Source: Planctomycetota bacterium (lineage in GTDB: Bacteria; Planctomycetota; Phycisphaerae; Phycisphaerales; SM1A02). Taken from it: DNA of 64,000 nucleotides. The position numbers and the translations under genes were made by a program. The notes beneath the pieces are model-generated. The model was not told where the DNA came from, ran no database searches, and saw only the letters and a list, made by a program, of their open reading frames with translations. The DNA is taken from positions 1 through 64,000 of the forward strand of contig RFON01000007.1 in NCBI GenBank assembly GCA_009926625.1, read 5' to 3'. How positions within the stretch are numbered: the first letter of the stretch is position 1; every line of letters starts with the position of its first letter. This document shows, in pieces, positions 3,667 to 12,183 of this stretch.

Positions 3667-4302
3667 ATGGCTTGCCGCTGGTTCGGTGCATGTCGTTGGG
3701 TGGCGATCGCCGCCTGCCTCTGCATCGGCGGATGCAGCGACATTCGCGAGGCTCGGATCCCCAGCGGTGAAGTTCCCGACGACTCGTCGATTGATGTAAC
3801 GATTCTCACTGGGTCGGGGGTGAAGGACCTGCCGCAAGCGCACCTTCGGCAGGGCAAGTTCACGATGTTGAGCGATGGCAGTCTGCGCAGCGATTACGGC
3901 GACAGCCTGTCGTTCCTGACGCGGCCGGCGATCACACGATGGCTGTACCGCGAGCAGGTGGATGGAGTCTGGTCGCTCGCGCGCGAGACCGGATGGATCG
4001 ATCCATCGCAGTCGACGGTCGATGAGTGGCCGTCATCCGTCGTGCCGGCGAAGGATGAGATCGTCTACATCCTGTTCTTCCACGCCGACGGGACAGACTG
4101 GTGGTTCGTGCGGCGCTTCAAGGTCACCGAGGTTCCCGATGCGAACGCGGTCACACTCGTTCGATCGCTTTGTTCGCTCGCGTGGGCAACCGATCGAAGC
4201 GCGGATCGAAACTTGCCGCAGCGCTACGACTTTGGTCCCGATCCATATGCCGGCTTCGACAAGGCGCCGCCTTTCAAGCCAACAGCGCGCGAGGTGCAGT
4301 GA
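3667..4302 (+). CDS. Lipoprotein of unknown function
   Basis: The 211-residue product has a basic N-terminus, a hydrophobic stretch and a lipobox (LCIGGC, Cys23), so it should be a lipid-anchored protein beyond the inner membrane. The mature part is acidic and aromatic, with repeated Trp (DWWFVRRF near residue 145), and ends in a Pro/Lys tail. I do not recognise a family. It starts the unit 3667-4812 and its TGA overlaps the GTG of the next lipoprotein gene (GTGA), so the two are probably made together. The pheT gene lies head to head about 50 bp away. Confidence 0.75.
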   Translation: MACRWFGACRWVAIAACLCIGGCSDIREARIPSGEVPDDSSIDVTILTGSGVKDLPQAHLRQGKFTMLSDGSLRSDYGDSLSFLTRPAITRWLYREQVDGVWSLARETGWIDPSQSTVDEWPSSVVPAKDEIVYILFFHADGTDWWFVRRFKVTEVPDANAVTLVRSLCSLAWATDRSADRNLPQRYDFGPDPYAGFDKAPPFKPTAREVQ

Positions 4303-4812
4303 ATCGACCGCTCCACTGCAGCTCGGCGCTTTCCGTGGTCGGTGCCCTGATCGCGGGTGGGTTCGTGCCGTCAGGCTGCAACGCACTGCCAACCAAGTTG
4401 GAGTCGCCGAGCGCGTGCGGCATCAGCCTGATGATCTGGTCACGCGAGCCTTCCGAGGCGAAGTACGAGTACTTCGAGGTCGACCGCGGCACATTCGGCT
4501 ACGGCGGTGGCAAGGATGGACTTGCAATGGTGCCATCGTGGGAAACGCCGCACTTCTTGCAAGCCCGGTCTTGAAAGTCGTCTCGGGACGCGCGCGAGAA
4601 ACAAGCCTGCTTGGATGGCTGTTCCAGTGCCCGAAGGCGGTGATCGGCTTGCTGATGTTGCCGTCATGTGGGAGGGCGGGCAACGGCAGTTTGCTGCGAG
4701 CGGTGACGATCCGAGTGTCCGCGAGGCAGTCGCGATGCTTTCGCAGATCGCGGCGGCACGATTTCAGCGGCAGCTCGATCGGCTGCCCGAAGCAGGCAAG
4801 CAACCGCGTTGA
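4299..4812 (+). pseudogene. Lipoprotein gene broken by a 72-bp foreign segment
   Basis: Translation starts at GTG 4299 (GTGA overlap with the previous gene) and gives a signal sequence with lipobox VPSGC (Cys29), then a sensible domain ending DRGTFGYGGGKDGLAMVPSWE. From 4550 the DNA is a 72-bp exact copy of part of the permease gene near 12.1 kb. In this frame it gives TPHFLQARS and a stop at 4574. Just after the copy, the next forward frame carries what looks like the rest of the gene (VPVPEGGDRLADVAVMWEGG onward, stop at 4812). The two halves are therefore in different frames and separated by foreign sequence. As written it encodes only about 91 residues. Either the gene is dead or the assembly is wrong here. 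Confidence 0.65.
4550..4621 (+). repeat. 72-bp exact direct repeat, copy A
   Basis: Identical base for base, by eye, to 12070-12141 in the same orientation. It starts gcacttcttgcaagc and ends ttggatggctg. The flanking bases differ at once on both sides. Here it interrupts a lipoprotein gene; in the permease it is in frame and fits the protein (LLASPVLKVVSGRARETS), so the permease copy is the likely source. Confidence 0.95.
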
Positions 4813-4973: not shown

Positions 4974-5561
4974 ATGGATCGACTCGACGCTTCGGCAGCA
5001 GAGAACGATTGGGCAACGCGCGTGGGCGCAACATATGTGGACCATATTGGAGCGCTCCAGGGCGTGCTCACGAAACGGCTTCGCGCACCGCGGCCAATCG
5101 TGGAGGACGCGCTGCACGATGTCTTCTGCGCGGTACTTCGCCTTCGCCAGATTCCAGGGCAGTCGCGTGATGGAGCGCTGTCATTCAGCTATCTCTGCGC
5201 CGCGGGACAGCGTCGCGTGCGGCGTTTGCTGCAGCAAGGTGTTGAGCGCCAGCGGAGGATCCAACGAGATGCGCTGCGCGATGCCGTTGGCGGTTCGAAC
5301 GAATCGCTGTGGGCTTCGCGAGCACGCGACGCGGAGTCCAACTTGTTGCACGAAGTGGATTGCGCGATGCGCGGGCTGAGTCGACGCCAGCGCGATGTTC
5401 TTCGAGTGGCGTTCTCGACCGTCGGCTGTGGGCGTGACGAGGCGCGGATGCTCGGCGTGTCGGCTGGTGCGCACGCCGTGGAGAAGCATCGTGCGATCAC
5501 AGCGCTTCGTCAGGCCCTCCATGTGGATGTTTCCCGCGAGGTGAGTCGGCGTTCCCGCTGA
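4974..5561 (+). CDS. ECF-like RNA polymerase sigma factor
   Basis: A 195-residue protein with the layout of a small sigma-70 family factor. A region-2 type helix, VEDALHDVFCAVLRLRQIPG (about residues 41-60), matches the E-D-hhQDVF pattern. A C-terminal region-4 type helix-turn-helix follows, LSRRQRDVLRVAF then EARMLGVSAGAHAVEKHRAITALRQAL (about residues 140-185), although the usual YxEIA is altered. The ATG at 4974 is preceded by a strong AAGGGGG site 6-12 bases upstream, one of the few clear ribosome binding sites here. It may control the neighbouring lipoprotein genes, but no anti-sigma factor is adjacent. Region 2.4 is weak, so the assignment is moderate. Confidence 0.65.
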   Translation: MDRLDASAAENDWATRVGATYVDHIGALQGVLTKRLRAPRPIVEDALHDVFCAVLRLRQIPGQSRDGALSFSYLCAAGQRRVRRLLQQGVERQRRIQRDALRDAVGGSNESLWASRARDAESNLLHEVDCAMRGLSRRQRDVLRVAFSTVGCGRDEARMLGVSAGAHAVEKHRAITALRQALHVDVSREVSRRSR

Positions 5562-5599: not shown

Positions 5600-7528
5600 A
5601 TGGAAGGTGCGGAGGCTCGCGAGCCGATCATCGGCATCGATCTTGGAACAACCCATTCGCTTGTGGCTGTGTGCGATGCGGCAGGCCCGCGGGTGATCGA
5701 AGGTCCCGCGGGCGAGCGGCTGCTCCCCTCGGTCGTTCGTTACTCGAATGGGCGCGTGAGCGCGGTCGGGTCCGATGCGCGGAAGGGGGCAGCGGAGTTC
5801 CCTGATCAAACCATCGCAAGCGCGAAGCGGTGGATGGGCCGAGCACACGGGGAGGCGAGTGCGCTCGACGGAGCCTTCGGTGTCGAAGTCGTTGCTGGGC
5901 CCCGAGGCTTGGCGGCCCTTCGAGCGGGAGGTGCAACCGTGCTGCCGCAGGAGGTCGCGGCGGTCGTGCTTGCAGAACTGCGCGGCTGGGCTGAACGGGC
6001 GCTCGGTTGCGCGGCGCGCCGAGCAGTCATCACCGTGCCTGCGTACTTCGACGATGGTCAGCGACAAGCAACGCGCGATGCTGCTCGTCTCGCGGGGATC
6101 GAAGCGGTCCGACTCGTTCCTGAACCGACCGCTGCTGCGCTGGCCTATGGACTGGGGCGGCGCGGTCACCCCGAGACCATCGTGGTGTACGACCTCGGTG
6201 GCGGCACCTTCGATGTTTCGGTGCTTGAAGTGACCCCCGACGACGGCAGTGGCGCGGGGGCGATGTTCCGCGTCCTTGCAACGCACGGCGACACGCGGTT
6301 GGGCGGCGATGACATTGATCGCGCGCTCGCTGAGCGACTGCTCGCCGAAGCAGGGTTGGGCTCGGCGGGGCTCGATGGTGCGAGCCTCGCTCCAGCGTCG
6401 CGGCAAGCGCTGAGGGATTTCGCGGAGTCCGCCAAGATTGCTTTGTCGACCCGCGACAGCGCGACGGTGGATGTCGACCTTGGTGGTGGAGCGCGTCTGT
6501 CGCGTTCCCTGCTGCGCAGCGAATTCGAGGCCATTGCGCGACCCTTCGTCGAGCGCACCATCGAACTCTGCCGCCGCGCGCTTGATGATGCGGGGAATCC
6601 GCACTTGGATCGGGTGGTGCTTGTCGGCGGCTCCACTCGCATGCCGCTCGTGCGGCAGGAGGTCGCGCGGTTCTTCGGAGTCGAGCCGTACACAGCACTC
6701 GATCCAGACATGGTGGTTGCGCTCGGTGCTGCCGTGCAGGGTGCGCTCCTTGGCGGCGTTCGGCGGGATGCACTGTTGCTCGATGTGATTCCACTGTCGC
6801 TTGGCATCGAAACCGTTGGCGGCGCCGTCGCCAAACTGCTCATGCGAAACAGCGCGATCCCAGCCTTTGCGCGCGAAATGTTCTCGACGAGCGTCGACAA
6901 TCAGACGGCGGTGCGGCTGCATGTGGTGCAGGGAGAACGAGAGATGGCTGCCGACTGCAGGTCGCTCGCGCGCTTCGAACTGCGCAACATTCCGCCGATG
7001 CCAGCTGGCATCCCGCAAGTCGAGGTGGATTTCACGGTGGATGCAAATGGCGTCCTGCAGGTGCGCGCGGGGGAACGGCGCAGCGGTCAACGAGCATCCG
7101 TCCAAGTGGTTCCAAGCTATGGACTGACTGCCGAGGAGGTCGAGCGGATGGAGCGCGAGTCGCTGACGCACGCCCGAGATGACATGCGCCGACACAGGGT
7201 CATCGATCTGGCGGTCAACGCGTCACTCGATGTGAAGTGGATCGGCGATGCACTGGAGCGTGTCCGCGCACACCTTGACACCGCCGTGGTCGAGTCGGTC
7301 GACCAGGAACTGCATCGGGTTCGTGCCCTCATCGCGCTTGCGAAGTCTGCACCTGAATCGGTCGATGCAAACGCATTCCAACAGGCGAAAGAGGCGCTCG
7401 ACCGCGCGAGCGTGCCCGTACATGAGTCAGCGATCGCTGCAAGCCTTCGCGCGGAGCAGCAGGCGGCAGGATCGTCCGAACCGAACAGCGAACGAGGCGG
7501 CGGTGTTGCCCCAAGGAGTCCATCATGA
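5600..7528 (+). CDS. hscA: Hsp70-family chaperone, HscA type
   Basis: A full-length 642-residue Hsp70. ATPase motifs: GIDLGTTHS (12-20), VPAYFDD (146-152), VPEPTAAALAYG (173-184), VYDLGGGTFDVSVL (196-209) and VGGSTRMP (about 340). The substrate-binding part has VQGEREMAADCRSLARFEL followed by NIPPMPAG, which is characteristic of the HscA branch that serves Fe-S cluster assembly rather than of DnaK. The C-terminus lacks the Gly/Met-rich EEVD-like tail of general chaperones. Neither hscB nor isc genes are adjacent, so the partner is elsewhere or different. The stop overlaps ispD as ATGA. IspD is not an Fe-S protein, so the coupling may be fortuitous. Confidence 0.85.
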   Translation: MEGAEAREPIIGIDLGTTHSLVAVCDAAGPRVIEGPAGERLLPSVVRYSNGRVSAVGSDARKGAAEFPDQTIASAKRWMGRAHGEASALDGAFGVEVVAGPRGLAALRAGGATVLPQEVAAVVLAELRGWAERALGCAARRAVITVPAYFDDGQRQATRDAARLAGIEAVRLVPEPTAAALAYGLGRRGHPETIVVYDLGGGTFDVSVLEVTPDDGSGAGAMFRVLATHGDTRLGGDDIDRALAERLLAEAGLGSAGLDGASLAPASRQALRDFAESAKIALSTRDSATVDVDLGGGARLSRSLLRSEFEAIARPFVERTIELCRRALDDAGNPHLDRVVLVGGSTRMPLVRQEVARFFGVEPYTALDPDMVVALGAAVQGALLGGVRRDALLLDVIPLSLGIETVGGAVAKLLMRNSAIPAFAREMFSTSVDNQTAVRLHVVQGEREMAADCRSLARFELRNIPPMPAGIPQVEVDFTVDANGVLQVRAGERRSGQRASVQVVPSYGLTAEEVERMERESLTHARDDMRRHRVIDLAVNASLDVKWIGDALERVRAHLDTAVVESVDQELHRVRALIALAKSAPESVDANAFQQAKEALDRASVPVHESAIAASLRAEQQAAGSSEPNSERGGGVAPRSPS

Positions 7529-10812: not shown

Positions 10813-12183
10813 ATGATGGTCAAAGGCTTTGCCAACGAGGCACTTGCGGGAGCCACCACCTTCGTGGCGATGGTGGTGGTCATGGCGGTGCTGCCTGATG
10901 TGCTTTGCGGTCAAGCACTTGGCACGGCGACGGGCTTCGTTCCTGATGCGGTGGTGTGGTCGACAGCGATTGCCGTTGCCGCGGGCTGCGTGCTCATGGG
11001 CACGATCGGTCGGCTGCCGATCGCGGTGGGGCCGACCTACGGGCAGGCGTTCTTCCTGGTGCTGACGATGATTCCTGCGGCGGTTGCAGCAGGCAGCGCG
11101 GACCCATGGCGAACGGCGCTCGGTGCAACATTCGTTGCCGGAGTCGTTCTGCTGCTTCTGTCACTTGCAGGTCTTCGAACCGTCGTGCTGCGAGCGGTCG
11201 ATGCACAGTTGCAGACTGCCATCGGCTGCGGCATCGGGCTCCTGATTGCAACGATGGGGCTTCGCGCGGCTGGCATCATCGCGCCGGGTGCTGGTGCGTT
11301 TCGCCTCATCATCGACCTCCGCTCGCCCGATGTGATTGTGTGCATCATCGGGATCGTGACGGCAGGCGTCATGCAGGCACGCGGTTGGCGGACAGCGCTC
11401 CTGTTCGCAACCGCTGTGGCGTTCGCATGCGCATGGCTCCTTCGTTCGCTTGTGCCGTCGATGTTGCCGCAGTGGGCGGCATCGGATGCGTGGACCGCGT
11501 CACAGATTCTGGGGGCCACTGTCCCAACCGGCGCGATGGGGCTTCCCGCGCAGCACTTCGAGGGGCTGCTCTCGCTCGATGTCGTCGGGGCCTTGGCGCC
11601 GCAGATGTGGGCGCCCACGCTGCTCCTGATCTTCAGCATGCTGTGCGACTCGACGACCGGACTTCTCGCCCTCATGCATCATGGAGGGTTCATTTCAAGC
11701 AACGACGATCCGCCCGTGCGGCGCGCCATGATCGCCGACTCACTGTCCACATGTGCGTCGTCACTGCTCGGGGTCAGCGCGTGCGGCGCCTATGCCGAAA
11801 GCAACGCAGGCATTGCAGCGGGTGGGCGAAGCGGCACGACCGCGATCGTCGCGGGAGTGCTGATGCTCGCGGCGCTTGCGTTCGCACCGATCGTCGAGGC
11901 GCTCGGCAACTATCCGCCCGCCAGTGCGCCGGTCTTGGTACTCGTCGGCGCAGCCATGGCCAGCCAACTGCGGCGGCTTCAATGGAACGATTCGGCCGCG
12001 TCCGTGCCGATGCTGCTCGTGATCGTCGGCATCCCGTTGACTTCATCGATTGCCGACAGCATGGCCGCAGCACTTCTTGCAAGCCCGGTCTTGAAAGTCG
12101 TCTCGGGACGCGCGCGAGAAACAAGCCTGCTTGGATGGCTGCTTGCGGCCGCCATGGCCGCCTACTTCACTTGGCTTCGGTAG
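10813..12183 (+). CDS. AzgA-type purine (NCS2 family) permease
   Basis: A 456-residue inner-membrane protein with about 12 hydrophobic segments. Features of the AzgA/GhxP branch are TAIGCGIGLLIATMGL, the segment around FSMLCDSTTGLLAL (the position of the substrate-binding FDTVGTL), and ADSLSTCASSLLGVSACGAYAESNAGIAAGGRSG, which matches the conserved TSYIES-AAGVAAGGRTG region. It should import adenine, guanine or hypoxanthine, but the key FDT motif is altered (CDS), so the substrate is uncertain. I chose ATG 10813; ATG 10816 or GTG 10810 are close alternatives. It is divergent from feoA. Codons near the end contain the 72-bp sequence duplicated at 4550. The stop overlaps the BFD gene tail to tail by 22 bp. 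Confidence 0.82.
   Translation: MMVKGFANEALAGATTFVAMVVVMAVLPDVLCGQALGTATGFVPDAVVWSTAIAVAAGCVLMGTIGRLPIAVGPTYGQAFFLVLTMIPAAVAAGSADPWRTALGATFVAGVVLLLLSLAGLRTVVLRAVDAQLQTAIGCGIGLLIATMGLRAAGIIAPGAGAFRLIIDLRSPDVIVCIIGIVTAGVMQARGWRTALLFATAVAFACAWLLRSLVPSMLPQWAASDAWTASQILGATVPTGAMGLPAQHFEGLLSLDVVGALAPQMWAPTLLLIFSMLCDSTTGLLALMHHGGFISSNDDPPVRRAMIADSLSTCASSLLGVSACGAYAESNAGIAAGGRSGTTAIVAGVLMLAALAFAPIVEALGNYPPASAPVLVLVGAAMASQLRRLQWNDSAASVPMLLVIVGIPLTSSIADSMAAALLASPVLKVVSGRARETSLLGWLLAAAMAAYFTWLR
12070..12141 (+). repeat. 72-bp exact direct repeat, copy B (likely source)
   Basis: Identical to 4550-4621. It lies in frame inside the permease gene and encodes a natural C-terminal stretch of the protein, ALLASPVLKVVSGRARETS followed by LLGWL. 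Confidence 0.95.

Follow-up and report, generated by a model that had tools for sequence, protein, structure and literature searches.

A lipoprotein-like gene in the 64-kb stretch of DNA analysed here, called the window, is broken by a 72-bp patch that exactly copies part of a permease gene 7.5 kb away. Measured against the closest related genomes, the patch takes the place of about 80 native base pairs. The best explanation, in which we have moderate confidence, is a single, recent, non-reciprocal ectopic replacement of a short patch by illegitimate recombination, resembling the process that is named short-patch double illegitimate recombination (SPDIR), with a reference to Harms et al. 2016, in PMC7192050. 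The event was observed once, in a single draft genome that consists of 105 contigs. The genes and segments of the window described below lie on its + strand.

The two copies of the segment, at 4550-4621 and 12070-12141, are identical at 72 of 72 positions and run along the same strand. The match extends by 0 bases beyond either end, both ends being sharp, which confirmed the exact same-direction identity with immediately diverging flanks that the earlier note had described. Within the window the segment occurs at these two places only, and no exact repeat is longer than this pair; a 20-bp inverted pair was the one further exact repeat of at least 18 bp on either strand. The chance level was set by simulating the window 20 times with a first-order Markov model, which gave longest same-strand repeats of 15-18 bp as against the 72 bp observed. 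The match is not due to chance. A search of the genome's own assembly (2.58 Mb) with the 72-bp segment also gave two matches, both on contig C62.

The broken gene begins, in its upstream half (4299..4549), with a GTG start codon that overlaps the stop codon of its neighbour, an intact lipoprotein-like gene (3667..4302) that precedes the target and adjoins it in the three closest relatives as well. From this GTG at 4299 the reading frame continues into the patch (4550..4621) and stops there at a TGA (4572-4574). The downstream half (4622..4812) is open to 4812 in a frame that differs from that of the upstream half, and an ATG within the patch (4615-4617) is in frame with it. The claims that the patch introduces a stop and that the two halves no longer share a frame thus hold. 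The target gene is followed by a weakly sigma-factor-like gene (4974..5561), whose likeness to sigma-70/ECF proteins reached a best E of 1.1e-4 with all scores below the curated cut-offs, yet which has a counterpart at the corresponding position behind the target in the three closest relatives too.

Comparison with related genomes, for which the earlier note had called, revealed that an intact allele exists in other species. In 18 of 18 congeners the counterpart of the target gene has no internal stop, and the window's own genome matches it only as two pieces, 4302-4553 and 4576-4809. A relative of the target gene was found in 44 genomes of a family sample of 61 (own genome included), and in one other of these 44, G087, the matching region contains a TGA. 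The target protein matched no Pfam model (E up to 0.01) and no NCBIfam model (E up to 0.1). The knocked-out gene is a genus-wide gene with no assigned family. It is called lipoprotein-like because, read by eye, its product has a signal-like N-terminus and a cysteine; the lipobox departs from the textbook form.

The three closest relatives, G006, G003 and G010, share 75, 71 and 71% DNA identity with the window over the aligned region, and in each of them 26 codons lie between a conserved WETP and the next VP.P. In the window the patch is found at this position. It shares one base with each neighbouring codon, so that 72 bp in the window stand against 80 bp in the three relatives. The lost stretch can be aligned in all 18 congeners, where it starts with L(S/T) in 18 of 18 and retains a C and a W in 18, a QC in 17 and a GGW in 15. 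Since about 80 bp of native sequence are missing relative to the three closest relatives, the patch is a substitution and not an added piece, the former allele of the species being approximated by the alleles of these relatives. An inserted element is ruled out on the same ground. The TGA and the change of frame arise because of the net difference of −8 bp. Of the earlier proposal that a copied permease segment breaks the gene, the exact copy and the break stand, with the amendment that about 80 bp gave way to the copy.

The permease gene (10813..12183) is intact and belongs to the Xan_ur_permease family (PF00860, E 4.4e-22). The donor segment (12070..12141) lies near its 3' end. Clear orthologues of the permease, 79-86% identical over the protein, were present in three of the 18 congeners (G003, G006 and G010); a match in G008 (18 bits, E 8.7e-4, 29% identity) was not counted as an orthologue. 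The Xan_ur_permease gene is accordingly patchy in the genus. In all three genomes with a clear orthologue the donor stretch is read through without a break, which bears out the view that the segment is natural coding sequence in the permease. This continuity identifies the permease as the donor and rules out copying in the reverse direction, from the lipoprotein-like gene into the permease. In G010 and G003 the permease and the target gene are located on one contig and on the same strand at a distance of about 6 kb, an arrangement much like that of the window, whereas G006 carries them on separate contigs.

Self-comparison of the genome covered 758 kb of 2,577 kb (29%) on both strands and considered pairs with both ends inside this part. 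Here too no exact repeat exceeded the 72-bp pair. Besides it, the exact matches of at least 26 bp comprised tandem arrays on contigs C19 and C2, the C10 repeat described below and a 26-bp match on C1, which has similar flanks and represents ordinary homology. No further sharp-ended non-tandem exact copies were seen in the 758 kb compared, and the picture of a genome full of such patches does not apply to this 29%. Contig C10 carries an apparently intergenic 80-bp repeat with one mismatch and weaker similarity beyond it (2316-2395 and 6225-6304, same strand, 3.9 kb apart). An open reading frame at 2372-2899 overlaps one copy, the reading frames near the second copy resemble acetyltransferases, and Rfam gave no match at gathering scores at this repeat. 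Five contigs of the own genome of about 1 kb each, C4-C8, consist entirely of N.

To estimate the age of the break, selection on the two halves was compared with that in the relatives. Between the window and the relatives omega was 0.13-0.17 for the upstream half and 0.09-0.13 for the downstream half; among the relatives themselves the values were 0.13-0.19 and 0.11-0.20. By this measure there was no clear sign of relaxed selection or decay in the halves of the broken gene. The dS values were 0.48-1.54 across the comparisons and 0.8-1.1 to the nearest relative. The upstream half agreed with the relatives in 73-77% of the residues, slightly below the 75-81% found among the relatives, and residue 63 is an R in the window and a G, A or D in the 18 congeners. 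Since both halves still look conserved and under purifying selection at a dS of 0.8-1.1, the break appears to be young, and, as the patch and the donor differ at 0 of 72 positions, the event probably occurred recently in comparison with the split from the nearest species examined. The absence of clear decay fits a real mutation and an artefact alike.

The relation between donor and recipient was examined with the sequences of the relatives as stand-ins for the lost target allele, both for overall similarity and for the junctions. The donor and the lost target showed no similarity above chance: of 150 random 72-mers of the window used as controls, 62-100% reached or exceeded the donor's score in local alignment and 83-93% did so in global alignment. 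This lack of similarity points to illegitimate and not homologous recombination. Microhomology at the junctions was assessed against 1500 controls, again with the lost allele approximated by the relatives, and was not above chance. The left junction has a CGC beside a mismatch, for which a fraction of 0.12-0.29 of the controls was as good; the right junction has one base and a further match two bases in, with 0.59-0.60 of the controls as good.

In the explanation that we prefer, a short stretch of permease-derived DNA would have become part of the lipoprotein-like gene at a distance of 7.5 kb. The donor strand was probably single-stranded DNA that annealed at a replication gap. This would have displaced about 80 native base pairs while the donor permease stayed unchanged, and the outcome would be a net loss of 8 bp with a stop and a frameshift, amounting to a knockout of the gene. 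Both the single-stranded intermediate and the replication context are inferred. Against this explanation stand the junctions, where microhomology, expected for SPDIR, was not above chance with the relatives as stand-ins. The own genome also carries recA, recJ and dprA, so that a lack of any of these three was discarded as the cause of the event.

This explanation presupposes that the allele is real, which is likely. The alternative is an assembly or library artefact, in which a chimeric read or assembly path placed a permease fragment between the halves of an intact gene. The genome is a single draft, the three close relatives are apparently metagenome-assembled, the halves are without clear decay as they would be in an intact gene, and the lack of junction microhomology above chance is also what an artefact could produce. 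However, an artefact needs two separate false junctions plus the loss of the true 80 bp, and no second, intact copy of the target was found in the assembly. The window and the 758 kb compared contain no N, and no gap filling is therefore visible there. If such joins were numerous, more sharp-ended non-tandem copies would be predicted than the one pair seen in the compared part. We therefore regard an artefact as unlikely.

Even less likely, in our judgement, is the repair of a double-strand break or stalled fork with long-distance polymerase template switching, by which 80 bp would have been lost and a 72-bp filler templated by the permease. The end product would be identical: a deletion with a templated filler on the same strand, from a source 7.5 kb away and with little or no microhomology. 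The product alone does not distinguish template switching from the joining of a short donor strand. A search for Ku gave 0 matches in the own genome (assembly 91% complete), which counts only against a Ku-dependent form of such repair; the control search matched in one of 14 genomes, that of B. subtilis.

Homologous gene conversion between related sequences would account for a non-reciprocal copy with an intact donor, but it is very improbable and can be set aside, because donor and lost target (the latter represented by the relatives) are no more alike than random pairs and the permease is a PF00860 protein whereas the target protein has no Pfam family. The earlier note had listed gene conversion by template switching, a captured fragment and an assembly chimera as options; homology-driven conversion drops out for want of donor-target similarity, and template switching is kept as a rival. 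A mobile or programmed element (transposon, diversity-generating retroelement or cassette switching) could leave a short exact copy near its source, but is hardly credible here, since native DNA was lost, the assembly contains the segment just twice, inspection by eye showed neither inverted ends nor a target duplication, in agreement with the earlier view that this is no normal transposon, the 72/72 identity leaves no adenine-directed changes and so argues against a diversity-generating retroelement, and the uninterrupted target in 18 of 18 congeners gives no sign of cassette switching. A virus-borne copy was likewise rejected: the 72-bp segment had 0 exact matches in viral_contigs, a collection that may omit records of the own genome or near ones. 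In the same collection, and with the same proviso, 59 stretches fitted a peptide pattern taken from the upstream half, and 0 of them encoded a relative.

The short-patch replacement that we favour is a kind of mutation already known, and the present case is one event in which one gene was broken. If sequencing reads confirm it, it would provide a clean natural example of ectopic short-patch replacement in which donor, recipient, direction and the approximate state before the event can all be read, and it would come from a lineage only distantly related to the organism used for studies of the process. Without a search for a donor such events resemble ordinary frameshifts or clusters of substitutions and may therefore be under-counted. 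A stronger reading, which we consider conceivable but doubtful, is that the knockout is real, fixed or segregating in a wild planctomycete, and was produced by short-patch replacement from within the genome, with essentially no need for microhomology. If that were true, the copying of scraps of 70-80 bp between neighbouring unrelated genes would be a general and overlooked source of mutation in bacteria, and would not be peculiar to recombination-defective laboratory strains.

Several known processes resemble the proposed event. Templated fillers and template switching in eukaryotic rearrangements likewise place short ectopic templated segments at a deletion; they concern other organisms and enzymes, and here no Ku was found. 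Double illegitimate and homology-facilitated illegitimate recombination during natural transformation also join DNA where homology is missing at one end or at both. These processes act on incoming DNA, whereas in the window the donor sequence is that of the genome's own permease, whichever route it took. The closest counterpart is SPDIR, which Harms et al. (PNAS, 2016, doi 10.1073/pnas.1615819114) reportedly described in Acinetobacter baylyi. In SPDIR a piece of DNA tens of base pairs long, of intragenomic or external origin, replaces an unrelated stretch of the recipient while the donor remains unchanged, leaving clustered changes and a small net gain or loss of bases. It is independent of RecA, becomes more frequent in the absence of RecA or of single-strand exonucleases, and is expected to show microhomology at its junctions. 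The present case differs in that the genome is that of an uncultured bacterium, planctomycete-like to judge from its relatives, and that junction microhomology, judged with the lost allele approximated by the relatives, was not above chance; a patch of 72 bp also seems long for SPDIR. It agrees with SPDIR in that donor and recipient, the latter again represented by the relatives, lack overall homology, in that a recipient segment of 80 bp in the relatives is replaced by 72 bp in the window, and in that the donor is an intragenomic piece of tens of base pairs which is unchanged at its source.
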